DNA of 64,000 bases from Novosphingobium sp. SG919 (GTDB lineage: Bacteria; Pseudomonadota; Alphaproteobacteria; Sphingomonadales; Sphingomonadaceae): assembly GCF_012932495.1 (NCBI RefSeq), contig NZ_JABCNG010000002.1, positions 496,001 to 560,000 on the forward strand. The letters run 5' to 3'. Under the pieces are notes generated by a model. The model was not told the origin of the DNA. It made no database searches and worked only from the letters and a program-made list of their open reading frames with translations. Both the position numbers and the translations under genes were made by a program. Positions within the stretch are counted from its first letter, which is position 1, and each line of letters begins with the position of its first letter. This document shows positions 11,118-33,364 of the stretch, one piece after another.

Positions 11118-11131
11118 TGCCAGCGCTGGCA
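11118..11131. promoter_or_regulatory. Perfect 14-bp palindrome, probable LacI-family operator for uxaA and uxaC
   Basis: TGCCAGCGCTGGCA is a perfect inverted repeat with the central CG step typical of LacI-family operators. It lies in the short divergent region between uxaA and uxaC. Its half-site differs from the ACCGGT-centred operators of the kdu genes, so a different repressor is expected; the LacI-1 gene at 14025-15077, next to uxuB, is the natural candidate. Confidence 0.6.
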
Positions 11132-11175
11132 CAACCGGCTAGAGCCCCTTTCGCCGCATGCAAGAGGCTTTTTCG

Positions 11176-15104: not shown

Positions 15105-16109
15105 TCAGGCCAGCCCCACCGTTGCCGCCCAGGCGCGCCACAGGTCGGGCCAGGCCTCCACCGGCTTGCCGATCGCGCGGCGCAGGCCAAAGCCGTGGCC
15201 GCCGTTGGCAAAGAGATGCATTTCCAGCGGAATGCCACGTGCCTTGAGCGCGGCGCGCAGGCGCACGGTGTTTTCCACCGGCACCACGTCGTCATCCTCG
15301 GCATGGCAGAGGAAATGCGGGGGCGCATCGGCCGGTACGCAAGCGTCGGGCGAATGCGCGGCCTGGAGTGCCGGCGTGGGCTTGGCGCCCAGCAGCAGGG
15401 TGCGGGAGCCGGCATGGGCAATGGCCGGGTCCATACTGACCACCGGATAGATCGGCGCGGCGCTGTGCGGCCGGGCCGACAGTGCATCGGCCGCATCCTG
15501 CTGGGGATAGACGCGTTGGGCAAAGCGCGCCGCCAGATCGGCGCAGACGTGGCCGCCGGCCGAAAACCCCATCGCGGCCACGCGTTCGGGATCGATCGCA
15601 TAATCGCGCGCGCGGTGGCGGATCAAGCGCATGGCGCGCTGTGCATCGGCCAGGGCGGTATCGGGCCCCGAAGACCAGCCTTCGCCCGGCAGGCGATAGA
15701 ACAGAACGAAGGCCGTGAAGCCGCGCGCGGCCAGCCAGCGGCCGATCTCATAGCCTTCCTTGTCCACCACAACCCAGCGATAGCCGCCACCCGGCGTGAT
15801 CATGACACACGCGCCATTGGGCCGATCCGGCCGGAACACGGCCAGGCGCGGGCGCGTGATGCCCAGCACCGCGCGATCGTTGACCAGGGTATCGCTCGAT
15901 CGCTCGTTGACGGTTTCGATCAAGGGAGCGGCCAGATGGCCGGGGGCGCCATCTGGCCACAGGTCGATCGTTTCCACCGGCTGGGGGAGGCCCGGCGGAA
16001 CACCACGTGGCCCAGCCGGCGGTGGGGTTTGCCCCATCGCCGGCCGGGCTGTTGCCCATGCTGCCCCCGCAAGCGTCCGGGCCACCAGAGCGCGACGGGA
16101 AAGCGTCAT
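15105..16109 (-). CDS. Exported alpha/beta-hydrolase, acetylesterase-like
   Basis: This 334-aa alpha/beta-hydrolase has an N-terminal signal containing a twin Arg (LSRRALVARTL) ending near AMG, so export, possibly by Tat, is likely. The core shows the oxyanion-region TPGGGYRWV, the nucleophile elbow GFSAGGH at about 178-184, an acidic segment EDDDVVP and the late catalytic His in GGHGFGL. This pattern is shared with acetyl-xylan-esterase-like and BD-FAE-type esterases. Encoded 24 nt behind the TonB receptor, it probably removes acetyl or other ester groups from pectin-derived oligosaccharides in the periplasm. The substrate is inferred from context only. Confidence 0.8.
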   Translation of the reverse strand: MTLSRRALVARTLAGAAWATARPAMGQTPPPAGPRGVPPGLPQPVETIDLWPDGAPGHLAAPLIETVNERSSDTLVNDRAVLGITRPRLAVFRPDRPNGACVMITPGGGYRWVVVDKEGYEIGRWLAARGFTAFVLFYRLPGEGWSSGPDTALADAQRAMRLIRHRARDYAIDPERVAAMGFSAGGHVCADLAARFAQRVYPQQDAADALSARPHSAAPIYPVVSMDPAIAHAGSRTLLLGAKPTPALQAAHSPDACVPADAPPHFLCHAEDDDVVPVENTVRLRAALKARGIPLEMHLFANGGHGFGLRRAIGKPVEAWPDLWRAWAATVGLA

Positions 16110-19025: not shown

Positions 19026-19057
19026 CGTAACATCCCCTCTCAGCCCGTGAGGCTGGA

Positions 19058-19071
19058 TGATACCGGTGTCA
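19058..19071. promoter_or_regulatory. LacI-type operator upstream of the TonB receptor (proximal)
   Basis: TGATACCGGTGTCA is palindromic at all but one base pair. It lies 33 nt before the receptor ATG. On the minus strand the site reads as part of TTGACACCGG, so a bound repressor would cover a -35-like TTGACA. Confidence 0.65.
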
Positions 19072-19195
19072 ACAATGCACGCAATGGCTTGCATCGATCC
19101 GGCAACACTACTCCCATCCGCGCACGGCGGATCGCCCGGAAGTTGGACCGGGCTCATTGTTTTCGGTGACGTTTCCCCGCCAGCAAGCGAGGAAA

Positions 19196-19209
19196 GGTAA
19201 CCGGTGTCA
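19196..19209. promoter_or_regulatory. LacI-type operator upstream of the TonB receptor (distal)
   Basis: GGTAACCGGTGTCA is identical, base for base, to the site in front of kduI (23636-23649) and to the minus-strand reading of the site in front of lacI-2. Its distance of 125 bp from the proximal site would allow looping by a tetrameric or paired repressor. Confidence 0.65.
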
Positions 19210-19383: not shown

Positions 19384-20949
19384 TCAGCTGCCCGGCTGCA
19401 CATAAGGCGCCGTGGCCCAGATCCGGCGCTGCCAGCCGCGCGGGTCGTCGGCCATGTGGGGGGCGTCGTCGAACACCATCGTGGCGCGCTGCGGCAGGCG
19501 ATAGGGCGCCCAATCGGGCAAGCCCCACCCGGCCCCACCGGGCCGCCCGCCGCGCGCCAGCCCGGCAAAGGCCGCCATCATCGTCGCGCTCAGCTTGCGG
19601 GCAGCGGCATCGGTGCCGGAATAGCTGCCCGGTGCATCGAGCGTGCCGAAGACATAGGGAATATCGTCGGTATGCGCCGCGCCGCGCAAGGGATCGCGTG
19701 GGGAAGGGCGGTCAAGCTGATAGACCCAGGTCTGCGACGCGCCGGCCGCCGCGCGGGCATCGGCCTCGATCACTTGGCCCGGCCAGGAACGCCCGGCCGT
19801 GGTGGCGGCGTAATAGACCTGCTCCGCGCTCCACGTCGGCGCTTGGGCACGGTATTGCGCCACCACCCATTGCGGATCGAGGTCGATCTTCACTTCGGCC
19901 GCAATGCGCGCAGGCAAATTGTCCCACGAAAGTCCGGCCAGCTTGGGGCCGCGCGGATCGAGGAACGCGCGCGTTTCATCACGCACATTGCCCAGGATCA
20001 TCGGCACGCCCAGCGATTGTGGCGCCGCATCGGGCCAGAACGGGTGGCGTGGCAGGTTCGTCATGTCCAGCACCGGGCCGAAATAGACACTGCCACCCAT
20101 GATCGGATCGGTGGCATCGAGTGCTTCGATCAGCCGTGCGATCGGCAGCGTTCGCAAGGACTCCACGTCGCTGACGTCCAGCCGCTGCATCAGCGCGCGG
20201 GTACGCGCCAGGGCATGGATCGGGCCGCTGGCCTGGACTTGCTGCCCGCTCATCGTCGCGGCGGCGTGGAACAGGCCCTTGGCTGCTGGCATGGCCATCA
20301 GCGTGGCGATCTTGGCTCCGCCGCCCGATTGGCCAAAGACCATGACCCGCGTGGGATCACCGCCGAACGCGGCGATATGATCGCGCACCCATTGCAGTGC
20401 CAGGATCAGATCGAGTTGTCCCAGATTGCCGCTATCGGCAAAGCGCGGATCGAGCGGCTTGAGCCAGGCATAGCCCAATGGTCCCAGGCGGTGGTTGACG
20501 CTCACCACCACCACATCGCCACCGGCCGCGAGCCGCCCGCCGTGGGTCAACGGATCGGTGACGGAGCCATTGGCATAAGCACCGCCGTGAAAATAGACCA
20601 TGACCGCGCGGCTAGCGCGCGGGTGCGCCTCGGGCGTCCACACGTTGAGGAATAGGCAATCCTCGCTTTGCGGCGCGTCTGCCATGCCGCGCTGCGGGCA
20701 GACCGGTCCGAACCGCGTGGCATCCACGGTCTCTCCGGTGAAGGGCTCTGCCACGGCGCGGGCAAAGCGGCTGGCGCGGCCATAGCGGATGCCCTTGAAC
20801 GCCATGACGCCTTCCTCGCGCATGCCGCGATAGCGCCCCACCTGGGGTTGCGTTGGAGACGCCGCGCGCAAGGGCAGCGGCGCCAGCGCGGCTATGGCGG
20901 TGGCGCCCGTGACCAAACTTCGCCGGGTAATCGGTCCCATCCTGCCCAC
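19384..20949 (-). CDS. Type-B carboxylesterase, Tat-exported
   Basis: This 521-aa carboxylesterase of the COesterase family has an N-terminal twin-arginine signal (ITRRSLVTGATA) and cleavage near LRAA. Family marks are SEDCLFLNVWTP at about 95-106, YFHGGAYANGS, the nucleophile elbow GQSGGGAK and the conserved DQ-equivalent segment NLGQLDLILALQWVRDHI. It is the last gene of kduI-kduD-kdgK-esterase, 26 nt after kdgK. In this context it should remove ester substituents (acetyl, methyl or feruloyl) from pectic oligosaccharides outside the cytoplasm. The exact ester is unknown. Confidence 0.88.
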   Translation of the reverse strand: MGRMGPITRRSLVTGATAIAALAPLPLRAASPTQPQVGRYRGMREEGVMAFKGIRYGRASRFARAVAEPFTGETVDATRFGPVCPQRGMADAPQSEDCLFLNVWTPEAHPRASRAVMVYFHGGAYANGSVTDPLTHGGRLAAGGDVVVVSVNHRLGPLGYAWLKPLDPRFADSGNLGQLDLILALQWVRDHIAAFGGDPTRVMVFGQSGGGAKIATLMAMPAAKGLFHAAATMSGQQVQASGPIHALARTRALMQRLDVSDVESLRTLPIARLIEALDATDPIMGGSVYFGPVLDMTNLPRHPFWPDAAPQSLGVPMILGNVRDETRAFLDPRGPKLAGLSWDNLPARIAAEVKIDLDPQWVVAQYRAQAPTWSAEQVYYAATTAGRSWPGQVIEADARAAAGASQTWVYQLDRPSPRDPLRGAAHTDDIPYVFGTLDAPGSYSGTDAAARKLSATMMAAFAGLARGGRPGGAGWGLPDWAPYRLPQRATMVFDDAPHMADDPRGWQRRIWATAPYVQPGS

Positions 20950-20975: not shown

Positions 20976-21995
20976 TCAGCGCCGCACATCACCACCGCTG
21001 GCGGAGAATGCATCGAGTTCGGCGCGCGGGATCGTGCACATGTCGCCGGGCTGGCTGTGCTTGAGCGCGGTATAGGCGAGGCCCGCCTGGGCCATGGCGG
21101 CCACATCGCCGCGTTCGAGCCAGGCGTGCAGCACGCCGGCGGCAAAGGCGTCGCCGGTGCCGATGCGGTCGACGATGCCAGTCACGTCCACTTCGGCGGT
21201 CTGGTGCGCGGCGTCGCGCGCATCGACGCGGGCGGCGATGCGGTGGTGGTCGGGCCCGGCGATGTGGCGCGCGGTCGAGGCGATCAGGGTGAGGCGCGGG
21301 AAGGCGGCGAAGGCGGCTTGGGCGGCTTCGCGCCGCCGGTCGGCACCGTCGCCGGAAAAGGGCTGGGCCAGCAACAGCGCGATATCGCGGTGGTTGCCGA
21401 TCATGATACTGGCCGATTGCATCAGCCCGGCCAGGATCGCGCGCGGATCGCTATCCCACGCCTCCCACAGCATGGCGCGGTAATTGCCGTCGAAGCAGAT
21501 CGGCACGCCCGCGGCATCAGCCGCCGCCACCGCCGCCTGCGCCAGGGCCACGCCGCCCGGTCCCAGTGCCGGGGTGATGCCCGACAGGTGCAGCAGCGCC
21601 GCGCCATCGAGCGCTGCGGCAAAGTCGAATTCGTCCGGCCGCGACAGCGCAAACACGCTGCCGGCACGATCATAGGTGATTGTCGAGGGGCGCAGGCCCG
21701 CGCCGCTTTCCAGGAAATAGAGGCCCATGCGCCCCGCACCGCGGCCCACGTGGCGCGTGTCCACCCCGGCCGCGCCCAGCGCCGCGCGCGCCTTGTCGCC
21801 CAGCGGGCTGGCCGGCAGGCGGGTGAGCATCGCGGCCTGGTGGCCCAGCGCGGAGAGGCCAGCGGCCACGTTGGCTTCTGCTCCGCCCACCACCAGGTCC
21901 AGGCGTTCGCTTTGCTGCATCAGCCGCGCGCCGGGTGTGGCCAGGCGCAGCAGCACCTCACCAAAGCACACGACGTGCCCCAAACGCGCGCTCAT
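20976..21995 (-). CDS. kdgK: 2-keto-3-deoxygluconate kinase
   Basis: KdgK phosphorylates KDG to KDPG for cleavage by KDPG aldolase. The 339-aa PfkB-family sugar kinase starts with HVVCFGEVLLRLATPG and has GGAEANVAAGLSALG at about 37-51 and the C-terminal ATP/anion-hole signature GTGDAFAAG. The ATG at 21995 overlaps the kduD stop (ATGA). The open frame continues far upstream through kduD and kduI, but that is antisense-free coding noise in a GC-rich frame, not a fusion. No KDPG aldolase gene is in the window. Confidence 0.93.
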   Translation of the reverse strand: MSARLGHVVCFGEVLLRLATPGARLMQQSERLDLVVGGAEANVAAGLSALGHQAAMLTRLPASPLGDKARAALGAAGVDTRHVGRGAGRMGLYFLESGAGLRPSTITYDRAGSVFALSRPDEFDFAAALDGAALLHLSGITPALGPGGVALAQAAVAAADAAGVPICFDGNYRAMLWEAWDSDPRAILAGLMQSASIMIGNHRDIALLLAQPFSGDGADRRREAAQAAFAAFPRLTLIASTARHIAGPDHHRIAARVDARDAAHQTAEVDVTGIVDRIGTGDAFAAGVLHAWLERGDVAAMAQAGLAYTALKHSQPGDMCTIPRAELDAFSASGGDVRR

Positions 21996-22747
21996 CGCGC
22001 CAGCCAGCCGCCGTCCACCGCCAGGACATGGCCGGTGACATAGTTCGACGCGGGCGAGGCAAGGAACACCGCCGCGCCGGCAATGTCTTGCGGGTCGCCC
22101 CAGCGGCCGGCGGGAATGCGTTCCAGAATCTGGCGGTTGCGGGTCTCGTCGGCCTGGAGCGCGGCGGTGTTGTTGGTGGCGATATAGCCGGGCGCGATCG
22201 CGTTGACCTGCACGCCATGGGGCGCCAGTTCGTTGGCCATGGCCTTGGTCACCCCGCCCACGCCCGATTTGGCCGCGGCATAGCTGGGCACGCGGATGCC
22301 GCCCTGGAAGGTGAGCAGCGAAGCGATGTTGATGATCTTGCCGCCGCCCTGCGCCACCATCCCGCGCGCGGCCGCCTGGCTGAGGAAGAACAGCGTCTTG
22401 AGGTTGGTGTCGATCACCGCGTCCCAATCCGCCTCGCTGAACTGAAGCAGATCGTCGCGGCGGATGATCCCGGCGTTGTTCACCAGGATGTCGATCCGCC
22501 CGAGCGCGGAGACGGCCTCGTCCACCACGCGCGCCACCGGTTCGGTGCTGGACAGATCGGCAGTGATGTTCACCGCGCGGCGCCCGGCCTGGGCGACCAG
22601 GTCGAGCGTTTGCGCAGGCTCTGACCGGCCGGCCAGGGCGACGTCCGCCCCGGCCTGCGCCAGGGCGACGGCAATCGCCTGGCCGATGCCGGTGTTGGCC
22701 CCGGTGACGAGCGCGGTCTTGCCCGCAAGGCTGAAGGAAATGGCCAT
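21992..22747 (-). CDS. kduD: 2-deoxy-D-gluconate 3-dehydrogenase / 2-dehydro-3-deoxy-gluconate 5-dehydrogenase
   Basis: This 251-aa short-chain dehydrogenase reduces 2,5-diketo-3-deoxygluconate to KDG after KduI. It shows the Rossmann motif TGANTGIG at about 15-22, NNAG at about 90, the active-site Ser region INIASLLTF and the catalytic YAAAK. FSLAGKTALVTGANTGIGQ at the N-terminus and the VTGHVLAVDGGWLAR end are characteristic of KduD. It lies 6 nt after kduI and overlaps kdgK, so the three steps from unsaturated uronate to KDPG are encoded as one unit. Confidence 0.93.
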   Translation of the reverse strand: MAISFSLAGKTALVTGANTGIGQAIAVALAQAGADVALAGRSEPAQTLDLVAQAGRRAVNITADLSSTEPVARVVDEAVSALGRIDILVNNAGIIRRDDLLQFSEADWDAVIDTNLKTLFFLSQAAARGMVAQGGGKIINIASLLTFQGGIRVPSYAAAKSGVGGVTKAMANELAPHGVQVNAIAPGYIATNNTAALQADETRNRQILERIPAGRWGDPQDIAGAAVFLASPASNYVTGHVLAVDGGWLAR

Positions 22748-22753
22748 CTGCGC

Positions 22754-23590
22754 TTACTTCAGCTGGCAGATGTCGAGCACGTTCATGTCGGTATAGTCGA
22801 GGTTTTCCCCGCCCATCGCCCAAATGAACGCATACTTCTTGGTGCCCGAGCCCATGTGGATCGACCAGGGCGGGCTGATCACCGCCTCTTCGTTGGCGAT
22901 GACCAGGTGGCGCATGCCGTCCGGCTCGCCCATGTAGTGGAACACGCGGTCGTTTTCCTGCGGAAGGTCGAAGTAGAGATAAATCTCGCTGCGGCGGTCG
23001 TGGAGGTGCGGGGGCATGGTGTTCCACACGCTGCCTTCTTCCAGCACGGTGAGGCCGAGCAGCAGTTGCGCGCTGTCGCAAACGCCGGGGATGACCAGCT
23101 GGTAGATCGTGCGCTGGTTGGAATTGGCCAGGTCCCCGCGCGCCAGCGGATTGGCCTGCTCCAGCGTGATGTGCTTGATCGGTAAAGCTTTGTGCGCGGG
23201 GGTAGAGGCAAGGTAGAACCGCGCGCCCTCGCCTTCGAACACCACCTCTTCGCTGCCCATGGGCACGTAGAGGCATTCCTTGTTGCCGACCGCAAAGCGC
23301 TGTCCGTCCACCGTGACGAAGCCCGGCCCACCGATATTGACCACGCCCATCTCGCGCCGCTCGAGCAGCGAATGGCCCGCCGCACTGGCCGGCGCCGTCT
23401 GCCGCGGCAGGGCCAGCGGCTCGGCTCCAGGCACGGCCCCGCCGATCACGAAGCGCTCGTTGTGCGAATAGTTGAGGTTCACTTCGCCCGCCACGAACAT
23501 GCCCGATACCAGGTAGCGATCGCGCAGCGCTTCGTTCGATACCCCGTCCATCATGTCCGGATGCGTGGCGTGATAGGTCTTGGCAAACAT
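22754..23590 (-). CDS. kduI: 5-keto-4-deoxyuronate isomerase
   Basis: KduI isomerises 5-keto-4-deoxyuronate, from unsaturated oligouronide ends, to 2,5-diketo-3-deoxygluconate. The 278-aa cupin is exactly the length of the enterobacterial enzyme and has the zinc motif HLHDRRSE at about residues 196-203 plus the later His in SIHMGSG. I chose the ATG at 23590, preceded by GAGGGAGAG. An in-frame extension to 23734 would translate through the operator at 23636-23649 and is rejected. It is the first gene of the kdu-kdg operon. Confidence 0.95.
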
Positions 23591-23635
23591 GGCGCACTCT
23601 CCCTCGTCGCTCTTGAGGGCTTGGTATCGAGTTTG

Positions 23636-23649
23636 GGTAACCGGTGTCA
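23636..23649. promoter_or_regulatory. LacI-type operator upstream of kduI
   Basis: GGTAACCGGTGTCA lies 46 nt before the kduI ATG. On the coding strand it reads TTGACACCGGTTACC: the TTGACA is a perfect -35 hexamer, and GATACC 16 nt further could serve as -10. The operator would therefore block the -35 element. Confidence 0.7.
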
Positions 23650-23788
23650 ATGGCGTTTTGACCACCCCGGTTTTTGATCGGGACCGCGCCGGTCCATCGC
23701 GCGCGCGGATTGGGCGGCGGCGAATCGCTACCATCCTCCACGCTGTGTCTGACGCCGAGATGGTGGTTCCCCGCGTTTTCTATGCCGG

Positions 23789-24844
23789 TCAGGATTTCAG
23801 CGGCGGATGGTCTGACGAAGCGGTTTGATCCGGCACCCGCTCCACGGCCGATGCCCGCCGCACCAGGTCCGACGGGAAGAACGACGGCTCGCGCGCAGCG
23901 GTTTCGGGGCGGGTCAGCTTAAGCGCGGCGGTGCGGGCCATGGCGCGGATCGGCCAGCGCACGGTGGTGAGCGGGGGCCAGATGTGCGCGGCAATGGCGG
24001 TATCGTCAAAGCCGATGATCGACAGGTCCTGCGGCACGGTCAGGCCGCGCGCGCAGGCGGCGTGCAGGACGCCGGCCGCCATCTCGTCGTTGCTGGCGAA
24101 GATCGCGGTGGGCGGCGTCTTGCCGTCGAGCAGCGCGTCGCCGGCGGCCTGGCCCGATTCGAAGCGATAATCCCCGCGCGTCAGCAGCGCGGGGTCGATC
24201 GTCAGCCCGGCGCGGCCCATGCCGGCGATGAAGCCCAGCTCGCGCTCGCGGGCAGAGCGGAAGCCATCGGGCCCGGCGACAAAGCCGATCCGGCTATGGC
24301 CCAGCTCGGCCAGCCAGGCCACCGCCTCGCTCACTGCCTGCTGGTCGTTCGACGCCACCAGATGGGCTTCATCGTCCAGCCGGGCCGATCCCATGCGCAC
24401 CACGGTGCAGCCCAGATCGCGGCACAGCCGGGCCAGTTCGTCGTTCTCGGACAGCGGAGGGAGCAGCATCACGCCATAAAGCCGCTGCTGTTCGATGAAG
24501 CGGTGGATATCGTCGAGCAGGGTGGGCGAGTGACGATCGACCGGGCGCACCACCAGCGCGAATTCGGTGGCGCGGATCGTGTCGAGAATGCCCTCCTGCA
24601 CATTGAGCACCATCTGGGCGTTGGGGTTGTCGTGGATCAGCCCGATCAGGAAATTGCGCCGCAAGGCCAGCGCGCGCGCCTGGGGGTTGGGCACGTAATC
24701 GAGCTGGGCGATCACCGCTTCCACCTTTTCGCGGGTGGCCTGGTTGAGCAGGGGTGACTTGTTGATCACCCGGCTGACGGTCTTTTTCGACACCCCGGAA
24801 AGGCGCGCCACATCGTTGATCGTGGGTTTTGGCGCTTTGGCCAT
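23789..24844 (-). CDS. LacI-family transcriptional regulator (LacI-2), probable repressor of the kdu regulon
   Basis: This 351-aa repressor has a LacI helix-turn-helix at about 8-55 (TINDVARLSGVSKKTVSRVIN) and the effector-binding domain. The recognition helix carries Lys-Lys at the specificity positions. The ATG at 24844 has AGAAGGA 7-8 nt upstream; a frame starting at 24943 would contain the operator at 24928. Its own promoter and the divergent hydratase promoter each carry an ACCGGT-type site, the usual arrangement for an autoregulated local repressor. The kduI operon begins 198 nt beyond its stop. Homology to LacI-1 suggests the two arose by duplication. Confidence 0.9.
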   Translation of the reverse strand: MAKAPKPTINDVARLSGVSKKTVSRVINKSPLLNQATREKVEAVIAQLDYVPNPQARALALRRNFLIGLIHDNPNAQMVLNVQEGILDTIRATEFALVVRPVDRHSPTLLDDIHRFIEQQRLYGVMLLPPLSENDELARLCRDLGCTVVRMGSARLDDEAHLVASNDQQAVSEAVAWLAELGHSRIGFVAGPDGFRSARERELGFIAGMGRAGLTIDPALLTRGDYRFESGQAAGDALLDGKTPPTAIFASNDEMAAGVLHAACARGLTVPQDLSIIGFDDTAIAAHIWPPLTTVRWPIRAMARTAALKLTRPETAAREPSFFPSDLVRRASAVERVPDQTASSDHPPLKS

Positions 24845-24927
24845 GCGGTGTCCTTCTTGCCTCTCGTCGCGTCCAGATTTCTGGCCCCGATTTTCAGACT
24901 TGCCTTCGTCAGCGGTAAAAGGCAATA

Positions 24928-24941
24928 TGACACCGGTTACC
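24928..24941. promoter_or_regulatory. LacI-type operator upstream of lacI-2
   Basis: TGACACCGGTTACC lies 84 nt before the lacI-2 ATG and is the exact reverse complement of the sites at 19196 and 23636. It is probably the autoregulatory site and also affects the divergent hydratase promoter. Confidence 0.7.
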
Positions 24942-25015
24942 ATGCCGCAAGGCGCATGCTGCCCCGTTCACCGCGGGGCGCGGCAAATCATGTTCAACGG
25001 CGTTGTATCGGGTTT

Positions 25016-25029
25016 TGACACCGGTTTCC
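25016..25029. promoter_or_regulatory. LacI-type operator upstream of the hydratase-exuT-GH43 operon
   Basis: TGACACCGGTTTCC differs at one base from the 24928 site. It is preceded by T, giving TTGACA as a -35 hexamer for plus-strand transcription. It lies 40 nt before the hydratase ATG and 74 nt from the lacI-2 site. Confidence 0.68.
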
Positions 25030-25068
25030 AGGCCAGTGCCTTGTCCGATCCGCTTGAGGTAAGCTGGG

Positions 25069-25875
25069 ATGGGTTTGACGGAACAGGCAAAGTCTGAGGC
25101 GCGCGCCGTGGCCGAAGCATTCGTGGCGGCGCGGCGCGAGAAACGCGCGTTATCATCCTATCCGGGGCAGGCGCCGGCCGATCTGGTCGGTGCCTATGCC
25201 ATCCAGGATGCCGCGCTGGCGATCGACGGCCGCGCGGTTGCGGGATGGAAAGTGGGGCGGATCAACCCGCCCGACGATGCCCGTCTGGCCAGCAACCGCC
25301 TGGCCGGGCCGATCTTCGCCGATAGCGTGGTGATCCCGGGCTTTGGCCAGGTGCCCGGCATGCCGGTGTTTGCGCAAGGCTTTGCTGCGGCAGAGGCGGA
25401 ATTCCTGCTGCATGTGGCGCCGGGCTGGGACGGGACGGTGCCGGGCGATGATGGCGCCACGCGTGCGCTGCTCGATGCTGTGCATATCGGTATAGAGGTC
25501 GCCAGTTCGCCTTACCCGGGGATCAACGACGATGGCCCGCCGGTCACCGTCTCGGACTATGGCAACAACTATGGCCTGGTCGTGGGGGCAGCCCTTTCCG
25601 GATGGCAAGAGATTGATTTTGCGTCTATCTCGGTAACGCTGTCGATCGACGGTGCCCCTGTCGGCAAGGCCACGACGGCCACGATGCTCGATGGCCCGTT
25701 GGGCGCGGTGCGCTTTCTGCTGGGCAACCTGGCGGCGCGCGGCATCGATGCGACGCGCGGCCTTTGGGTATCCACCGGCGCGGTCACCGGGGTGCATTCG
25801 GTCGAGCCGGGGCAACAGGTCCGCGCGGCCTTTGCCGGGCACGGCAGCGTCGCCTGCACGATCGTGGCCGCTTAA
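25069..25875 (+). CDS. 2-keto-4-pentenoate hydratase-family protein
   Basis: This 268-aa protein of the MhpD/fumarylacetoacetate-hydrolase superfamily has the hallmark AGWKVG at about 57-62, an acidic AEAEFLLH segment at about 105-112 and IGIEVASSPYPG at about 143-154, which supply the metal-binding Glu and Asp residues. The family hydrates 2-hydroxypenta-2,4-dienoate or handles related 2-oxoacids. Here it is the first gene of an operon with the hexuronate transporter and GH43 and has a LacI operator in front, so a sugar-derived 2-keto-3-deoxy acid is a more likely substrate than an aromatic ring-cleavage product. The reaction is not resolved. Confidence 0.8.
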   Translation: MGLTEQAKSEARAVAEAFVAARREKRALSSYPGQAPADLVGAYAIQDAALAIDGRAVAGWKVGRINPPDDARLASNRLAGPIFADSVVIPGFGQVPGMPVFAQGFAAAEAEFLLHVAPGWDGTVPGDDGATRALLDAVHIGIEVASSPYPGINDDGPPVTVSDYGNNYGLVVGAALSGWQEIDFASISVTLSIDGAPVGKATTATMLDGPLGAVRFLLGNLAARGIDATRGLWVSTGAVTGVHSVEPGQQVRAAFAGHGSVACTIVAA

Positions 25876-25935
25876 GGCCGCTAGGCAAGCATGACCGGCA
25901 GGGTAACAAGCCCGCCGCTTTCGGGAGTTGAAGCA

Positions 25936-27222
25936 ATGAAAGCGCAGATCGGGGAAGGCATCCCGGCCACGGCAAATGTGGGGCGCACGCGCTGGGTGGT
26001 GGTGGCCCTGCTGTTTGCCGCCACGGCGATCAACTATATCGACCGGCAGATGATCGGCGTGCTCAAGCCCACGCTGGCGGCCGATTTCCATTGGTCGGAA
26101 TCCGATTTCGCGGCGATCGTGTTCTGGTTCCAGGTGGCCTATGCCATCGGCTATCTCTCGTTCGGCAAAGTGGTCGATGCGCTGGGCGCACGGCTGGGCT
26201 ATACCATTGCCATCGTCATCTGGACGGTGAGCCATATCGCCCATGGCTTTGCCACCGGCCTGGTCTCTTTTGCCCTGGCCCGCTTTGGCCTGGGGCTGGG
26301 CGAATCCGGCAATTTCCCCGCCGGCATCCGCGCGGTGACCGACTGGTTCCCCCAGCGTGAACGCGCCTTTGCCATCGGGGTGTTCAACGCCGGGGCCAAT
26401 GTCGGCGCGATCATCACGCCATTGCTCGTGCCCTTGCTGGTGCTGTGGTTCGATTGGCGCATGGCGTTCTTCGTCACCGGCCTGTTCGGCATTGCCTGGG
26501 TCGTGGCGTGGTGGCTGCTCTATCGCCATCCCACGCAGCATGGCCGCGTCAGCGCCGCCGAACTGGCCTGGATTCGCCAGGATCCGGCCGACCCGGTCAC
26601 CCCGATCGGCTGGGCAAGGCTGCTCACCGTGCGCGAGACCTGGGCCTATGCCCTGGGCAAGTTCCTGATCGACCCGATCTGGTGGTTCTTCCTGTTCTGG
26701 CTGCCGGGCTATCTGTTCACGCGCTACAACCTCGATCTCAAGAGTTTCGGCCTGCCGCTGGCAGCGATCTACCTGATTTCGGACTTGGGCAGCATTGCCG
26801 GCGGCTGGCTGTCGTCGCGCCTGATCAAGGCCGGGCGCTCGCCCAATGTCGCGCGCAAGGTGACCATGCTGATCTGCGCGGTCTGCGTCCTGCCGATCTG
26901 GTTCGTGCAAGGGGTGGACAGCATGTGGTGGGCCGTCTTGATCATCGGCCTCGCCACGGCTGCGCACCAGGCCTTTTCCGCCAATCTCTATACGCTGCCT
27001 TCCGACATGTTTCCACGCGGCGCGGTGGGTTCGGTGGTGGGCATCGGCGGCACGGTGGGGGCCTTTGGCGGCATGGGCATGGCGCTGTTTGCCGGCTATA
27101 TCCTCGATGCCACGCACAGTTACGAAGTGCTCTTTGCCATCTGCGCCAGCGCCTATCTCGTGGCGCTTGCGGTGGTCCACCTGCTTAGCCCGCGCCTGGC
27201 GCCGGTGCGGATCGCGGCATGA
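25936..27222 (+). CDS. exuT: MFS hexuronate transporter (ExuT-like, ACS family)
   Basis: This 428-aa major facilitator of the anion:cation symporter family has about 12 membrane segments and probably imports galacturonate or glucuronate with protons. Family features include INYIDRQMIGVLKPTLAADF in TM1, GLGLGESGNFPAGIRAVTDW at about 118-137 and WFPQRERAFAIGVFN in the TM4-5 region. The ATG at 25936 has GGGAG 8 nt upstream and is preferred to an in-frame start at 25891. It sits 60 nt after the hydratase gene and overlaps the GH43 start (ATGA). Confidence 0.88.
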   Translation: MKAQIGEGIPATANVGRTRWVVVALLFAATAINYIDRQMIGVLKPTLAADFHWSESDFAAIVFWFQVAYAIGYLSFGKVVDALGARLGYTIAIVIWTVSHIAHGFATGLVSFALARFGLGLGESGNFPAGIRAVTDWFPQRERAFAIGVFNAGANVGAIITPLLVPLLVLWFDWRMAFFVTGLFGIAWVVAWWLLYRHPTQHGRVSAAELAWIRQDPADPVTPIGWARLLTVRETWAYALGKFLIDPIWWFFLFWLPGYLFTRYNLDLKSFGLPLAAIYLISDLGSIAGGWLSSRLIKAGRSPNVARKVTMLICAVCVLPIWFVQGVDSMWWAVLIIGLATAAHQAFSANLYTLPSDMFPRGAVGSVVGIGGTVGAFGGMGMALFAGYILDATHSYEVLFAICASAYLVALAVVHLLSPRLAPVRIAA

Positions 27223-28835
27223 GCGGCACCGTCGACCGGCGCGGCGCGCTGGCCGGCGCGGTGGGTCTGGCGGGGCTTTCCAGCCTGCCGGCCCGTGCCG
27301 CGCCACCAGTGCCCTTGGCGCCAGTGCCCCACGCCCCGCGCGGGTTCGATGGCCAGCGCCTGGCCGATCTGGGCAACGGCACCTATCGCAATCCGATCAT
27401 GGCCGGCGATCATCCCGATCCGTCGATCCTGAAGGACGGCGCCGACTATTACATGACCTTCTCCACGTTCGATTCCTATCCGGGGCTGGTTATCTGGCAT
27501 TCGCAGGACCTGCTCAACTGGCAGCCGATCACCGCCGCGCTCACCCAGAATGTCGGCGCGGTCTGGGCGCCGGACCTGTGCCGCCACAACGGGCGCTACT
27601 TCATCTATTTCCCCGCCAAGGCCAGTCCCAATGCCAACTATGTGATCTGGGCAGACCGGATCGAGGGGCCGTGGAGCGCGCCGATTGACCTCGGCCTGCC
27701 CGATCACATCGATCCTGGCCATGCCGTGGGCGAGGATGGCTCGCGCTGGCTGTTCCTGTCGGGCGGAGATCGCGTGGCGCTTGCCGCCGATGGCCTGTCC
27801 ACGATGGGCAAGGTAGAGCACGTCTATGATCCCTGGCACTACCCCGAGGATTGGGATGTGGAAGGGTTTTCGCCCGAAGGCCCCAAGATCGTGGCGCACG
27901 GCGGTTGGTTCTATTTGATCACCGCCGTGGGCGGCACCGCCGGCCCGCCCACCGGGCACATGGTCATCGCGGCGCGATCGCGCTCCATCCACGGGCCGTG
28001 GGAAAACTGCCCGCACAACCCGATCGTGCGCACGCAAAGCCGGGATGAGGCCTGGTGGTCGCGCGGGCATGCCACCGTGTTCGAAGGGCCGGGCGGGGAC
28101 TGGTGGTCGGTCTATCATGGATTCGAGCGCGACTATTGGACGCTGGGGCGCCAGACGCTGCTCGATCCAGTGGAATGGACCGCCGACGGCTGGTTCCGCA
28201 TGAAAGGCGGCGATCTAGCCGCGCCGCTGCCCGCGCCGTTTCTCCCCGGGGGCGGCGGGCGCAAGGCCGGGCCCCATGGCCTGCCCTTGTCCGACGATTT
28301 CGCCACGCTCGAACTGGGTCGCCGCTGGAATTTCTTCAAGCCCGCGCGGGACGAAGCCAGCCGGGCGCGCGTCTCCAACCATTGCCTGCACCTGGCGGCG
28401 CGTGGCACCGCGCCTGCCGATTCCGCCCCGCTGCTGCTCATCGCCGGGGACCGGGCCTATGAGTTCGAGTGCGCGATCGAGATCGATCCCGAAACCACCG
28501 CCGGCCTGGTGCTGTTCTATGACCAGGCGCTCTATTGCGGGCTGGGGTTCGATACCCGGCGTTTCGTGACGCACCAATATGGGATGGAGCGGGGCCGCCC
28601 GGCCAATCCATACGGGCCGGCGATGCGCTTGCGCGTGCGCAACGATCGGCACATCGTGTCATTCCACACCAGCGGCGATGGCGGGCAGACCTGGCGCCGC
28701 TTTGACCGTGGGATGGAAGTGTCGGGTTATCACCACAACGTGCGCGGCGGCTTCCTGATGCTGCGTCCCGGCCTTTATGCGGCGGGCAAGGGGGAAGCGC
28801 GGTTCCGCGATTTCCGCTTTCGCGCGCTGGGTTAG
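27219..28835 (+). CDS. Glycoside hydrolase family 43 protein, Tat-exported
   Basis: The 538-aa product has a twin-arginine signal (VDRRGALAGAVG) ending near ARAA, a five-bladed-propeller GH43 domain at about 50-340 and a C-terminal beta-sandwich at about 350-538. Candidate catalytic residues are the Asp of GDHPDPSI (base), the Asp of HIDPGH (pKa modulator) and the Glu of FSPEGPKI (acid), in the family order. GH43 members act on alpha-L-arabinofuranosides, beta-xylosides or beta-galactans; an arabinan or galactan side chain of pectin is the best guess here. The gene is translationally coupled to exuT and followed by the two LamG genes. Confidence 0.88.
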   Translation: MSGTVDRRGALAGAVGLAGLSSLPARAAPPVPLAPVPHAPRGFDGQRLADLGNGTYRNPIMAGDHPDPSILKDGADYYMTFSTFDSYPGLVIWHSQDLLNWQPITAALTQNVGAVWAPDLCRHNGRYFIYFPAKASPNANYVIWADRIEGPWSAPIDLGLPDHIDPGHAVGEDGSRWLFLSGGDRVALAADGLSTMGKVEHVYDPWHYPEDWDVEGFSPEGPKIVAHGGWFYLITAVGGTAGPPTGHMVIAARSRSIHGPWENCPHNPIVRTQSRDEAWWSRGHATVFEGPGGDWWSVYHGFERDYWTLGRQTLLDPVEWTADGWFRMKGGDLAAPLPAPFLPGGGGRKAGPHGLPLSDDFATLELGRRWNFFKPARDEASRARVSNHCLHLAARGTAPADSAPLLLIAGDRAYEFECAIEIDPETTAGLVLFYDQALYCGLGFDTRRFVTHQYGMERGRPANPYGPAMRLRVRNDRHIVSFHTSGDGGQTWRRFDRGMEVSGYHHNVRGGFLMLRPGLYAAGKGEARFRDFRFRALG

Positions 28836-28901
28836 CGCGTCATCTTCGTCACCCCGGGTGATGGTGAAAAAATGAACAGAGATTTGCCTGGGAGAATTGC
28901 C

Positions 28902-31900
28902 GTGCCCCATCCGCTTTTGCGTGGCGCCTCGCTGCTGGCTCTGATCTGCGCCGCCACGGCCGCGCGCGCCACGCCGGCCGATGGCCTGCTGTTCCACGCC
29001 CCGCTGGATACGGGCTTCACGGCGACGCAAGCCGGCGGCGATGCCGTGCCCAATTTCCAGAGCGACGTGGCCATCGTGCCCGATGGCGCCACCGGCGGGG
29101 CCGGGCGCTGGGGCGATGGCGGCTATGTCGCGTGGAATGCGCCGGGCAACATGCTGGCGCAGCGGGGCACGCTGTCGTTCTTCTGGCGCAGCCACACCCC
29201 GGTGGGCGAAGCGCCGTTCGTGATCTTCCGCGCCGGCGCAGCCGATCATTCCAGCTGGGACATGGCGTTCCTGCGCATCGACTGGAACGGCCATGGCTTC
29301 GACGCTTTCGTCACCGATGCCAATCTTTCGCGCGTGCGCGTCAGTTGGACGATCCCGACGCCCCCGGCGCCCGATGCCTGGCACCACCTGGCTTTCGCCT
29401 GGGATGAGACGCGCGGCGTCACGCTGTTCTGGGACGGGCGCGAAGTGGCGCGCAAGGTGCAGGCCGCCGATCTCGACATGGGGCTGGACCAGTTCGGCCT
29501 GGCTGGCCGGGTCATGGCGCCGCACCAAGTGCAGAGCCGCTACAATTTCATGCGCGGGTCAGACCTGGATGACATTCGCGTCTATGACCACATGCTGGAC
29601 GGCGCTGGCGTAGCGGCACTTGCCGCGCACCAGGACCCGGCACCGCAGCCCGTGGCGCCCGATCGCGCCGCCTGGCTGCACCGCTTCGGCTGGGACAGCC
29701 AGACGCCGCCGCCGCTGGCCGATCCGGTCACCACGGTGCGGAAAGTGGAGTTTGCCGACGCCAAGGACCTCAAGGAATGGATGTGGAAAGGGGTGGACGG
29801 CATCGCCGAAACCACCTGGCCCGGCGTCTACAATCGCTCTCGCCTGCCGGGTCGCGACGACTATTTCGAACTGCCCGATTGGAACGTCTATGTCGAAGGG
29901 GGCAAGGCCTATAGCCTGACCGTGCCGGTGGCCGAGCGCTTCAACCGCGTGGAGATCCGCGGCGCTGCTTATGGCGCGCTGGAATGGTCGGCCGATGGGC
30001 AGCGCGGCTGGCAAAAGCTCGCCACGCGTCCGCAAGGGGTGGTGCGCTCGGTCACCCAGGCCGCGCCGCGTACCGGTGGCGTGCTGCGCTTCACCAATGT
30101 GATGCAGGAACAGCCGATCCAGGAAATCTGGGCCTACGACATGCATGCTGGCCCCGTGCCGGCCGGCACGTTCCAGTTGCGCTATACCGTGCGCAGTGCT
30201 GCGCCCACCGATCTGGGCGCGCTGGCGGGCCTCAATGCTTTCATCGCCGGTCGCTACCCGGCGGCGGAGCGCGCCACGGTGGTGGCGCTGCCCACCGACG
30301 GCGTGCGTGCGGCGGTGGGCGCGGGAAGCGCGGCGGGCAGCGACACGGCAGTGCGCGACGAGGGCGCGGCGCGGCTGCCGCTGGTGCATGTGCTGATCCC
30401 GTCGAACTTTGGCGATGCCCCGGCGGGCCGGCCGCTGGCGCGGGCGTGGAACTATGGCTGGGAAAACAGCCACGATGGCCTGGATGGCGTGGCGCTCGAT
30501 CTGCCCGCGCTGCATGCCGCGCCCGATGCCAAGGGGCTAATTGCGCTGAACATTCGCGTGAAAGACCCGATCTGGCCGGGGCGTGATATGATCGACGTGC
30601 AAGTCTCGGTGCGGCCGGGTGAGCCGCGCACGCTGTGGCTCGATCTGCGCGACCGCATCCTGACGGGTGACAGCCTCTACCTGACGGTGGCGTCCGCCGC
30701 GCCCGATTTCGGGCCGGCATCGCTCGATGGCATGGGCGTGCGGCTGGTGTTCAAGGACCGCGCGGCCGCGCTCAAGGAGCATGTGGCCGACCGCTTCAAC
30801 CAGGTGAAAGACAACTGGGCCTTCCTGGTGGAGGAACACACCGCCTCGAAACGCGCGGGGCTCTATCGCCGGCTTTATGGCGACATTACCGACCTGTTGC
30901 GCGTGGACCCGGACAATCTTGAGGCGCGGCGCTATTGGGCCGACATCGGCTATTCGCAGGACCAGTTGCCACCGTTCGTGCAGCCGCAGGCGCCGCAGGG
31001 CATGCCGCTTTGGGCCTTTCGCCAGTTGGAAGATCTCAAGCTGGCCCGCCAGTTCGTCAACTGGTGGATCGACAACCGCCAGGTGCCTTATGGCGATTTC
31101 GGTGGCGGCATTTCCGACGATACCGACCTGACGCAGCAATGGCCGGGCATGGCGCTGATGGGCGTGGACCCGGACAAGATCAACGCCTCGCTGCGCGCAT
31201 TGTCCGATGCGGTCTACAAGAACGGCATGATCGTCAATGGCTTGAGCTATATCACCAGCGACGAACTGCACGTTTACGAGGAAGGCATCAATTCCGACGC
31301 CGAGCGGCTCTATCTCAATTGGGGCGAGCCCAAGGCGGTGGAGCGGATGATGGCCACGGTCAAGGCGCTGGGCAGTGTGATCCGCACCAATCCGGCCGGG
31401 CATATGCACATTTCCTCAAGCTGGTATGGCGGGCGCAAGATCTATCGCGACGAGCCGTGGGCCTGGCAGAAGCCCTATGGCTTCGTGATCATGCACACGC
31501 CGGTCCTGCTGGGCCTGTACAATGCCGATCCCACCGCGCGGCATCTGGTGACGGGCCTGATCGACGGGCTGCTGGCCCATGGCAAGCAGGGCGCCGACGG
31601 GCTGTGGCGCTTTCCCAATGACATCGGCTGGAACAGCGATGCCGAGCGGGCGGGCGATGGCGGCGGGGCCAGCCTGCCGATGCAATCGGCCTGGGCTGCC
31701 TGGCGCTTTACCGGCGATGACAAGTACCTGCGCCCCGTGCTGGGCCGGCTGGGAACGGGCAATTTTGCCGCGCTGGGCGAGCTTAACGAAAATGCGCTGA
31801 CCGTGCTGGGCAAGCGCGGCGACTGGGCCGATGTGCTGCGCAAGGGCGCGGAAAACGGGAACGACGTGGCCCGGTTCGAAGCGTGGAACAGCACCGGCAA

Positions 31901-32705
31901 CCGCGCCTGGCTGGAAGCGCTCAACGCTGCCGGCATCGCCGACAAGACGCAGCACATGTATATGATCACGCAGGGCCACTGGTGGACCGACCGGGTGGAA
32001 GCGGCCAACGACCTGCTCCAGCGCGAACGGCTGGGCGGCATTGCCTTGAAACGCAACCAGACCTGGCCGGGCAACGCGGTAAGCTGGCGCTTTGCCGACC
32101 CGGAAGCCGCGCTCAAGGTGGCGATCCTGGTGCGCGATGCCACGCCCGAGGGCTTTACCGTCATCGCCCACAACACGAGCCGTCAGGAACAGCGTGCCGA
32201 GATGGGCACCTGGAACGTGGTAGCCGGCACCTGGACGATGACGCAGGGCCTCGCGCCGGATGACGGCGACGCGGCGCGCGAGTCGCTGGAGAAGCGCAGC
32301 GTGGAAATGGAACGCGGCGGTTCCATTCCCTTGGCCTTCGCACCGGGGCAGACCACGGTGATGACGTTCCGCCTAACGCAACGCGCGGCGGTGCAGCCCG
32401 AGCATCGGCCGGACCTGGGCATTGGCGCCGACGATGTGACGCGCAAGGGAAGCCGGATCACCGTGCGGGTGCACAGCCTGGGCAGCATGGCGGCGCCGGC
32501 GGGCACGCTGACGCTGGAAACCGCGGACGGACACGTGCTGGCCCGCGCGGCAGTGCCGCCGCTGCCGGCGCCCACCGATTTGACCCCGCGCACCGCCACG
32601 GTCACGCTGGCGATTCCGGCTGGCGCGCCACAGGGCCTGCATGTGCGGGTTTCTAGCGGCGTGGCCGAAGTGACCCAGCGCAACAACGTGGTGGTGCTGC
32701 CATGA
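28902..32705 (+). CDS. Large exported LamG-domain protein with helical central domain, possible novel carbohydrate-active enzyme
   Basis: I do not recognise the family. The 1267-aa product has a signal peptide (PLLRGASLLALICAATAARA), an N-terminal concanavalin-like LamG domain at about 25-245 (APDAWHHLAFAWDETRGVTL, DLDDIRVYDHML) and a beta-rich linker at about 260-600. A helical region at about 600-1030 follows, rich in aromatic and acidic residues (YGDFGGGISDDTDLTQQWPG, HISSSWYGGRKIY, WRFPNDIGWNSDAE), then C-terminal beta domains. The helical part looks like the (alpha/alpha) toroid of polysaccharide lyases or glycosidases. I chose GTG 28902 because GGGAG precedes it by 7 nt; the ATG at 28872 has no ribosome-binding site. 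It lies downstream of GH43 and overlaps the next LamG gene. A role on pectic oligosaccharide is inferred. Confidence 0.7.
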   Translation: MPHPLLRGASLLALICAATAARATPADGLLFHAPLDTGFTATQAGGDAVPNFQSDVAIVPDGATGGAGRWGDGGYVAWNAPGNMLAQRGTLSFFWRSHTPVGEAPFVIFRAGAADHSSWDMAFLRIDWNGHGFDAFVTDANLSRVRVSWTIPTPPAPDAWHHLAFAWDETRGVTLFWDGREVARKVQAADLDMGLDQFGLAGRVMAPHQVQSRYNFMRGSDLDDIRVYDHMLDGAGVAALAAHQDPAPQPVAPDRAAWLHRFGWDSQTPPPLADPVTTVRKVEFADAKDLKEWMWKGVDGIAETTWPGVYNRSRLPGRDDYFELPDWNVYVEGGKAYSLTVPVAERFNRVEIRGAAYGALEWSADGQRGWQKLATRPQGVVRSVTQAAPRTGGVLRFTNVMQEQPIQEIWAYDMHAGPVPAGTFQLRYTVRSAAPTDLGALAGLNAFIAGRYPAAERATVVALPTDGVRAAVGAGSAAGSDTAVRDEGAARLPLVHVLIPSNFGDAPAGRPLARAWNYGWENSHDGLDGVALDLPALHAAPDAKGLIALNIRVKDPIWPGRDMIDVQVSVRPGEPRTLWLDLRDRILTGDSLYLTVASAAPDFGPASLDGMGVRLVFKDRAAALKEHVADRFNQVKDNWAFLVEEHTASKRAGLYRRLYGDITDLLRVDPDNLEARRYWADIGYSQDQLPPFVQPQAPQGMPLWAFRQLEDLKLARQFVNWWIDNRQVPYGDFGGGISDDTDLTQQWPGMALMGVDPDKINASLRALSDAVYKNGMIVNGLSYITSDELHVYEEGINSDAERLYLNWGEPKAVERMMATVKALGSVIRTNPAGHMHISSSWYGGRKIYRDEPWAWQKPYGFVIMHTPVLLGLYNADPTARHLVTGLIDGLLAHGKQGADGLWRFPNDIGWNSDAERAGDGGGASLPMQSAWAAWRFTGDDKYLRPVLGRLGTGNFAALGELNENALTVLGKRGDWADVLRKGAENGNDVARFEAWNSTGNRAWLEALNAAGIADKTQHMYMITQGHWWTDRVEAANDLLQRERLGGIALKRNQTWPGNAVSWRFADPEAALKVAILVRDATPEGFTVIAHNTSRQEQRAEMGTWNVVAGTWTMTQGLAPDDGDAARESLEKRSVEMERGGSIPLAFAPGQTTVMTFRLTQRAAVQPEHRPDLGIGADDVTRKGSRITVRVHSLGSMAAPAGTLTLETADGHVLARAAVPPLPAPTDLTPRTATVTLAIPAGAPQGLHVRVSSGVAEVTQRNNVVVLP

Positions 32706-33364
32706 TCGCGCGCGCGGTGCTGGCGCTGGCTTTGCTGTTGCCCGGCTGCGCCAGCGCGCGGCAGGAAGTATGGCGGTTCGACAGTCTGGCCCGCATCGGC
32801 CACATGGCGCCGCAAGTGCAGGGCCATCCCAGGGTCGAAGGCAAGGCCATGGTGTTCGACGGGCAGGCCGATGCCCTGATCCTGCCGCGCCACCCGCTGG
32901 CCGGCGCCGCGCGGTTCACCGCCGAGGCGGTGTTTCGGCCCGATGGCGGCGCGTTCGAGCAGCGCTGGCTGCACCTGGCCAGCAACGACACGCCCGGCCG
33001 CCCGACGGGCGAAACCCGCATGCTGTTCGAAATCCGCGTGGTCGGCCAATCGTGGTATCTCGACACTTTTGTGAAGGGCGCCGGTTACAGCCAGGTCTTG
33101 GCCGATCCCGCGCGGCTGCACCCGATCGGTCGCTGGTATCACGTGGCGCAGACGTTCGACGGCACCACCTATCGCAGCTATGTCAACGGCTTGCTGGAGG
33201 GAGAGGCCCGCGTGGCCTTTGCGCCGCAACAACCGGGCAGCACCAGCGTGGCAATGCGGCGCAACGGGGTGAACCATTTCCATGGCGCAATCGCCATGGC
33301 GCGCTTCACCGATGAAGCCCTGTCGCCGCGCGATTTCCTGTCGCTGCCGCGCGGCGGGCGTTAA
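32702..33364 (+). CDS. LamG-domain lipoprotein
   Basis: This 220-aa protein has a short signal ending in LLPGC, so Cys16 is a likely lipidation site, and then a single concanavalin-like LamG jelly roll (FTAEAVFRPDGG, RWYHVAQTFDGTTYRSYVNG, HFHGAIAMARFTDEAL). It probably binds carbohydrate at the periplasmic or outer-membrane surface, perhaps holding substrate for the large protein whose stop codon it overlaps (ATGA). No catalytic residues can be named. Its stop overlaps the convergent DUF3237 stop within TTAA. Confidence 0.8.
   Translation: MIARAVLALALLLPGCASARQEVWRFDSLARIGHMAPQVQGHPRVEGKAMVFDGQADALILPRHPLAGAARFTAEAVFRPDGGAFEQRWLHLASNDTPGRPTGETRMLFEIRVVGQSWYLDTFVKGAGYSQVLADPARLHPIGRWYHVAQTFDGTTYRSYVNGLLEGEARVAFAPQQPGSTSVAMRRNGVNHFHGAIAMARFTDEALSPRDFLSLPRGGR

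Follow-up and report, generated by a model that had tools for sequence, protein, structure and literature searches.

Our analysis concerned a window of 64,000 nucleotides (the whole stretch of DNA analysed; Novosphingobium sp. SG919, contig NZ_JABCNG010000002.1, positions 496,001 to 560,000 of the forward strand) and, within it, a gene here called BIG, whose protein joins a LamG domain to a helical toroid and which stands in a uronate catabolism locus beside a gene for a second LamG protein, LamG2. A preliminary description drawn from the sequence had proposed BIG and LamG2 as a candidate new carbohydrate-active enzyme pair, with BIG as a possible source of the missing polysaccharide lyase activity. 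This proposal was supported in part: the candidate enzyme family stood, given an orphan sequence, a toroid whose invariant positions include acids, aromatics, His and Arg, and both linkage to and regulation with uronate catabolism; a lyase chemistry is possible, though slightly less favoured than hydrolysis. BIG probably represents a new family of enzymes in a system of known kind, that of a TonB-receptor carbohydrate-utilisation locus, and no paper on the family was recognised among the titles and abstract openings of the open-licence literature.

Gene, fold and conserved residues of BIG

The open frame of BIG comprises 1267 codons from a GTG at 28902 to the stop at 32705 on the + strand, and its overlap with the 220-aa LamG2 frame (32702-33364) through ATGA fits the coupling described. 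The ATG at 28872, giving a protein of 1277 aa, is the likelier start because the N. pokkalii homologue retains MNR..GRIAVPHPLLRG; residue numbers are counted from the GTG at 28902 throughout. The gene, its parts and its neighbour were placed as follows.

28872..32705, + strand: BIG, orphan LamG / (alpha/alpha)-toroid protein (frames, profile searches, models)
29115..29609, + strand: BIG N-terminal LamG domain (Laminin_G_3), residues 72-236 (Pfam, 34.8 bits, cut-off 27.6)
29811..29885, + strand: BIG residues 304-328, TTWPGVYNRSRLPGRDDYFELPDWN, of low model confidence (alignment and model)
31008..32036, + strand: BIG toroid, residues 703-1045 (models, structure comparison, alignment)
32079..32384, + strand: BIG C-terminal beta-sandwich, residues 1060-1161 (AlphaFold2 model)
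32436..32699, + strand: BIG C-terminal Ig/CARDB-like domain, residues 1179-1266 (AlphaFold2 model)
32702..33364, + strand: LamG2, probably a secreted LamG protein (Pfam LamG, 62.7 bits, cut-off 27.6)

The LamG domain claimed for both proteins thus exceeded the Pfam cut-off in each, and the N-terminus of BIG, hydrophobic and poorly conserved, fits the proposed signal peptide when judged by eye. Against 24,736 Pfam models (E<=1) BIG matched LamG alone, with no polysaccharide-lyase, PF07470 or GH76 match, and the approximately 1000 residues beyond LamG had no useful match in Pfam, NCBIfam or PHROGs. The 35 homologues searched against Pfam at the same threshold gave weak single-member matches beyond LamG, among them CARDB in 1/35 at 4.6e-4, and no GH76 or lyase profile. 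PDB sequence searches with the BIG protein and with its alignment gave nothing useful (a single chance match, E 0.45), and a profile search across 398 genomes of the phylum returned clear BIG homologues only, with no distant bridge family found.

AlphaFold2 modelling of residues 245-1267 from 34 sequences (pLDDT 84.2, pTM 0.84) gave, from the N-terminus on, two beta regions, then a helical toroid, followed by a beta-sandwich and a final Ig-like domain, and residues 616-1169 modelled alone reached pLDDT 90.4 and pTM 0.91, so that the long helical region noted earlier is present in the models. Residues 703-1045 were read as an (alpha/alpha)6-type toroid because the roughly 12 helices there can be matched over their full span to barrels of this class. 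In structure comparison (VIA) the best solved folds were the GH76 endo-alpha-1,6-mannanases 6y8f (Z 16.7, rmsd 3.9, 278 residues aligned) and 5m77 (Z 16.6, rmsd 3.8, 284 aligned), followed by GH88 (1vd5, Z 15.3, rmsd 3.9, 298 aligned; 3wiw, Z 15.1, rmsd 3.5, 286 aligned) and then by epimerase-fold proteins, GH47 and GH105 at Z of about 13-15, the GH88/GH105 entry 4xuv scoring Z 13.2 (rmsd 4.3, 275 aligned); since helical folds reach middling Z by chance, as the tool itself warns, this likeness is one of fold class and not of family. Foldseek against the PDB with the 1023-residue model had extended alignments with very low TM-scores at the top of its list, the toroid model had a phage tail protein as its top match (TM 0.27-0.31), and a viral library gave no match at E<=0.001. 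The fold search proposed in the preliminary description therefore placed hydrolase and epimerase folds nearest, with no polysaccharide lyase among the matches listed (VIA, two lists of 50; Foldseek, the top candidates that were aligned).

Two families of multi-domain toroid glycosidases also appeared, GH127 (4qjy, Foldseek E 4.6e-3 to the toroid) and a GH78-type protein (8iwd, Z 10.5, rmsd 4.5, 263 aligned). GH127 is a family with catalytic cysteines, and membership of BIG was rejected on that ground, as BIG has one Cys in total. An early idea, PL26 (PcRGLX), found no Pfam support.

Conservation was examined in 35 sequences including that of the window, the others being 46-82% identical to the window protein over residues 245-1267. 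The most conserved 25 residues were 304-328, N-terminal of the toroid, where 21/25 positions were at least 97% identical, followed by LamG residues 118-142 (17/25) and toroid residues 723-747, IDNRQVPYGDFGGGISDDTDLTQQW (16/25). Invariant positions numbered 47/211 in LamG (residues 30-240) and 58/343 in the toroid, in comparison to 6/102 and 3/88 in the two C-terminal domains; conservation in LamG thus equals or exceeds that in the toroid, and is lower in the C-terminal domains. The conserved segment 304-328 may pack against LamG, as suggested by its low confidence in the model that lacks LamG. Invariant toroid residues include D739, D740, D742, D787, H790, Y792, E793, N797, N830, H834, W855, W1028, D1030, R1031, Q1040, R1041 and R1043, and E788 joins them in the alignment of 34 sequences, the 35th differing there; the conserved motifs are D739-D740-x-D742, D787-E788-x-H790-x-Y792-E793, N830/H834, W1028-x-D1030-R1031 and Q1040-R1041-x-R1043. 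By alignment and model, inter-helix loops and the positions beside them are where the invariant polar and aromatic side chains concentrate. Of the conserved acidic/aromatic cleft anticipated earlier, the acidic and aromatic residues, together with His and Arg, are in place, and they may form one cleft.

Comparison with the two nearest families showed likeness in fold and difference in sequence. The toroid aligns with the GH88/GH105 barrel (1vd5, 3wiw, 4xuv), a fold common to other (alpha/alpha)6 families and hence not specific, whereas BIG has no PF07470 match (E<=1, nor did a six-frame scan of its own genome give one), reaches an hhalign probability of 0.1 against six PF07470 proteins that are 78-99% alike, and adds LamG, two N-terminal beta domains, a beta-sandwich and an Ig domain. 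The GH88 catalytic pair we take to be D88 and D149 of Bacillus UGL. In the model the fourth helix opens with D787-E788, which could correspond to the first of these; no invariant acid lies at the place expected for the second, and the loop joining helices five and six of the toroid (824-857) holds N830, H834 and W855 with no invariant acid. GH76 provides the best fold match, and its entry titles describe mutation of an Asp pair to inactivate the enzyme, where BIG has the adjacent acids D739-D740 and D787-E788 (a resemblance of sequence adjacency only); unlike GH76, BIG has no match at E<=1 to the GH76 profile, which is present in Pfam, and mannan is unrelated to this locus. Finally, BIG and LamG2 share the Laminin_G_3 domain with other LamG proteins; in BIG, however, it is a highly conserved part of an enzyme-like architecture and not a loosely attached binding module.

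The uronate locus and its operator

The genes to the left of BIG were assigned as below, from left to right, BIG and LamG2 closing the row.

9582..11132, - strand: altronate/galactarate dehydratase family (profile search)
11158..12609, + strand: UxaC (profile search)
12477..14024, + strand: fructuronate/tagaturonate-reductase family, below cut-offs; the frame overlaps UxaC and the true start is later
14025..15077, - strand: second LacI-family regulator (profile search)
15105..16109, - strand: BD-FAE-type esterase (profile search)
16134..19157, - strand: TonB-dependent receptor (profile search)
19384..20949, - strand: carboxylesterase-family protein (profile search)
20976..21998, - strand: PfkB-family kinase, probably 2-keto-3-deoxygluconate (KDG) kinase (below equivalog cut-offs)
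21992..22747, - strand: KduD (TIGR01832, 387.7 bits, cut-off 338.85)
22754..23734, - strand: KduI, profile match from residue 52 of the frame (NCBIfam NF002091, 380 bits, cut-off 250)
23789..24943, - strand: LacI-family regulator, helix-turn-helix from residue 41, true start probably later (profile search)
25069..25875, + strand: 2-oxopentenoate-hydratase / FAH-like, first gene of the BIG operon (below equivalog cut-offs, no Pfam match)
25891..27222, + strand: MFS transporter (best NCBIfam match D-galactonate transporter, 230.5 bits, cut-off 395)
27219..28835, + strand: GH43 with GH43_C2, beta-xylosidase / alpha-arabinofuranosidase type (profile search)

The GH43, MFS, LacI, KduI and KduD neighbours described earlier are present, KduI and KduD both above their NCBIfam equivalog cut-offs. 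The hexuronate transporter is confirmed as a member of the MFS family; its substrate is a family-level guess, the D-galactonate transporter match lying below its cut-off. As the preliminary description had noted, no polysaccharide-lyase family match occurred among the genes scanned in 9582-33364, where BIG and GH43 are the sole candidate glycan-cleaving proteins. UxaC and the altronate-dehydratase family gene would, from pathway knowledge, point to galacturonate and hence to pectin. The order from carboxylesterase to LamG2 is annotated alike on a Novosphingobium capsulatum plasmid (NZ_CP140001).

By gene content this is a carbohydrate-utilisation (CUT) locus, with a TonB-dependent receptor, regulator, transporter, glycan enzyme, uronate catabolism and a shared operator. 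In the available part of the source describing CUT loci of Xanthomonas and Caulobacter, TonB-dependent receptor, regulator, transporter, glycan enzyme and catabolic genes stand together, as they do around BIG, receptor genes are induced by polygalacturonate and loci are conserved in Caulobacter and Sphingomonas; unlike the present locus, that part was not found to describe a BIG-like protein (PMC1790865).

Operator-like sites were located by pattern search at four positions.

19195..19209, - strand: upstream of the TonB receptor
23635..23649, - strand: upstream of the likely kduI start
24928..24942, + strand: TGACACCGGTTACCA, before the BIG operon
25016..25030, + strand: TGACACCGGTTTCCA, before the BIG operon

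The pattern TGACACCGGTTNCCA (at most 2 mismatches) accordingly has four copies in the window against 0.49 expected, one at the TonB receptor, one at the likely kduI start and two at the BIG operon, in keeping with the operator control proposed for the latter. As the pattern itself had been derived from the window, its 10-base core was tested in other BIG loci, with gene starts taken from tblastn and 2/70 loci that had no upstream sequence left out. In 37/68 loci of named records the core lay no more than 300 bp upstream of BIG; when sites equally close to the FAH-like gene with which the BIG operon begins are counted as well, the figure rises to 62/68, against 752/20,000 for stretches of 330 bp drawn at random from these loci. 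It also stood directly before BIG in 15 of 18 long loci with no KduI or KduD nearby, indicating that BIG keeps its regulon membership when standing apart.

Elsewhere in the window, an arylsulfotransferase (ASST)-family gene and a Sulfotransfer_3 gene lie in sequence (48280-51395), and the N. capsulatum annotation likewise has such genes beyond the locus; a row of outer-membrane efflux factor, HlyD-type and MFS genes (36021-40303) resembles a tripartite efflux system.

Homologues and association with KduI

BIG was found in 13/298 genomes of the family and 8/96 genera, in 6/398 genomes of the phylum (the window's own genome included in each count) and, by a pattern scan that detects close relatives only, at 70 loci among 84,980 species genomes, as well as in 3 plasmid records. 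Named carriers belong to Novosphingobium, Sphingomonas, Hephaestia, Caulobacter, Asticcacaulis, Niveispirillum, Xanthomonas and Pseudoxanthomonas, with one record titled Arthrobacter. The latter (Arthrobacter sp. TPD3018, QDFQ01000001, 1.67 Mb, our L083) carries a Sphingomonas-type BIG/KduI locus with BIG 67% identical to the window protein and is probably mislabelled or contaminated. Two family genomes, G125 and G294, hold BIG paralogues only (48-51% identity). The BIG homologues of loci L081 and L082 fell into at least two tblastn pieces, probably through frameshifts or sequencing errors.

Neighbourhood mapping by tblastn around the 70 loci identified KduI in 39, KduD in 37, MFS in 39, FAH-like in 39, PfkB in 30, DUF885 in 45, GH43 in 15, LamG2 in 11 and PL10 in 2. 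GH88 was found in 0/70, using two queries from one group 78-99% alike that could miss a divergent GH105. Among the 53 BIG loci of at least 20 kb, 35 had KduI or KduD nearby. The frequent DUF885 gene (e.g. L034:13122-14573) is next downstream of BIG in L031, L034 and L052. In Sphingomonas mali an 807-aa protein near BIG (L071:5546-7966), between esterase-like genes and with a weak Glyco_hydro_20b match (0.0048), may be another orphan glycan enzyme.

Lyases do occur beside BIG in other genomes. In G327 (L117), from its gene order probably a xanthomonad, some 40 bp separate the BIG frame from the end of a PL10 pectate lyase gene upstream (376 aa, 1.7e-97), with a GDSL esterase, GH43 and a BNR protein downstream. 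In G125 the BIG paralogue has immediately before it, in the same direction, a PL22-profile protein (L110:12794-14002; 44.1 bits, cut-off 30), the matches being about 30 bp apart; this protein may be a lyase or else a propeller of related type.

The pairing of BIG with LamG2 and the description of the latter as a lipoprotein fared less well. No Cys aligned with that of LPGC in the 14 readable LamG2 homologue N-termini (L113 being incomplete), which resemble ordinary signal peptides, and the lipoprotein assignment was rejected as the lipobox Cys is not conserved. LamG2 was likewise rejected as an obligate partner given its presence in 11/70 loci; the tandem order BIG-LamG2 was confined to records with Novosphingobium in their title, and in L008, L045, L113 and L115 a homologue occurs near BIG in other arrangements.

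Across the 298 family genomes KduI was present in 12/13 with BIG in comparison to 45/285 others, and by genus in 8/8 with BIG and 34/96 overall. The KduI set consisted of 66 of 69 rows, weak rows (one in G267, two in G043) being left out, and hence of 57 rather than 58 genomes; in the GH88 set one row below cut-off was dropped (G013, 3 kb from a KduI gene) and one came from the six-frame scan mentioned above. Within 20 kb of the 66 KduI loci lay BIG in 6, GH88/105 (PF07470) in 13 and both in 0, such that the two look like alternatives at KduI loci, and two further BIG-KduI linkages were recovered by coordinates at 10-13 kb (G327, G586). The window's own genome, rated 100% complete, had no GH88/105, PL22, PL1, PL10 or GH28 profile match. 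In the 17 BIG-bearing genomes examined these were found in 11 (GH88/105), 9 (PL22), 2 (PL1), 6 (PL10) and 11 (GH28).

Proposed function of BIG and competing explanations

Taken together, we give about an even chance to the reading that BIG is an exported, exo-acting enzyme of a new family that frees uronic acids from pectic oligosaccharides. This is the simplest reading because BIG and GH43 are the only candidates among the scanned genes and GH43 is of xylosidase/arabinofuranosidase type, and exo-action fits best because the genome has no GH28 or PL22 profile with which to finish a chain. In this scheme the TonB receptor would import short pectic oligosaccharides, which the esterases and GH43 would trim before BIG, exported probably to the periplasm, acts from one chain end to release single galacturonate and/or 4,5-unsaturated galacturonate. 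The (alpha/alpha)6-type toroid would be the catalytic part, with LamG and loop 304-328 probably closing the cleft, and the MFS carrier would pass released uronates to KduI, KduD and KDG kinase and to UxaC and UxaB/UxaA-type enzymes. As to chemistry, we lean somewhat towards hydrolysis, GH88/GH105-like in role, over beta-elimination, owing to the hydrolase-type fold neighbours and carboxylate-rich conserved loops. A further suggestion, which we regard as rather doubtful, is that BIG alone does by one exo-acting mechanism the work of exo-polygalacturonase (GH28), oligogalacturonide lyase (PL22) and unsaturated galacturonyl hydrolase (GH105).

Several observations weigh against BIG as the uronide-releasing enzyme. 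No enzyme with a sequence relationship to it emerged from the Pfam, NCBIfam, PDB or hhalign searches, and the chance level of helical folds limits the structural likeness. KduI and KduD were absent nearby from 18/53 long BIG loci, 47/66 KduI loci lay near neither BIG nor GH88/105, and neither G385, which has BIG, nor G294, with only a 48% paralogue, has a KduI profile match. All three named xanthomonad loci (L058, L062, L074) had no operator core before BIG, L062 having it elsewhere, before the FAH-like gene. GH88 was equally enriched with KduI (20/22 genomes), and a shared plant-polysaccharide lifestyle could be the source of the BIG-KduI association. The own-genome negative covers the five pectinase profiles and Hepar_II_III; PL2, PL3, PL4, PL9, PL11, PL26 and others were not sought, and one Hepar_II_III protein is encoded on another contig, unlinked to BIG.

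Alternatively, BIG may be a new-family polysaccharide lyase, either an exo-lyase or an oligouronide lyase, sending unsaturated monomers straight to KduI and KduD, which we consider unlikely. The KduI/KduD linkage and the invariant Tyr792, His790, His834, Asn830 and Arg1031 favour it, and with no GH88/105, PL1, PL10 or PL22 profile in the genome a single exo-lyase would cover the unsaturated and saturated branches and would account no less simply for KduI/KduD and UxaC-type genes occurring together. Its nearest solved folds, however, are hydrolases (GH76, GH88, GH105, GH47) and epimerase-fold proteins, its conserved loops are carboxylate-rich, and BIG occurs where KduI does not (in loci and in G385, and as a paralogue in G294), indicating that its product need not be unsaturated. 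Moreover, KduI and KduD of E. coli are reported, in the part of the source available, to help galacturonate and glucuronate use, that is of saturated hexuronates, under osmotic stress (PMC3578941). With this role and the 47/66 KduI loci that have neither enzyme within 20 kb, KduI and KduD alone are no proof of a missing lyase and were rejected as such; the earlier suggestion that BIG fills a lyase gap is possible at most.

Next in order, and also improbable, BIG could be a new-family side-chain glycosidase (e.g. an arabinosidase, xylosidase or rhamnosidase) merely sharing the pectin regulon. The combination of toroid and C-terminal beta-sandwich resembles the multi-domain toroid glycosidases named above (4qjy, 8iwd), and the GH43 neighbour suggests side-chain trimming here; this would, however, leave the locus with no uronide-cleaving enzyme among its scanned genes, and BIG often retains the uronate operator in loci with no KduI or KduD nearby. 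A non-catalytic scaffold role, in which BIG would bind pectic oligosaccharides through its LamG and toroid to serve the TonB receptor and GH43, accords with the high conservation of LamG and the second LamG protein in 11/70 loci but is very unlikely, as it would leave the same gap in the locus and accounts poorly for the 58 invariant toroid positions, many acidic, aromatic, His or Arg.

In summary, approximately 1000 residues of conserved, operator-controlled protein with no family name are present in many Sphingomonadales and in some Caulobacterales and Xanthomonadales. If BIG is a uronide-releasing enzyme, it would add an enzyme family to pectin breakdown, explain the use of pectic uronates by a genome with none of the usual pectinase profiles and provide a tool enzyme for pectic oligosaccharides. 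Should BIG alone replace GH28, PL22 and GH105, plant-associated members of these three orders that have no known pectinases could scavenge pectic fragments with an enzyme that has LamG built into its active site.

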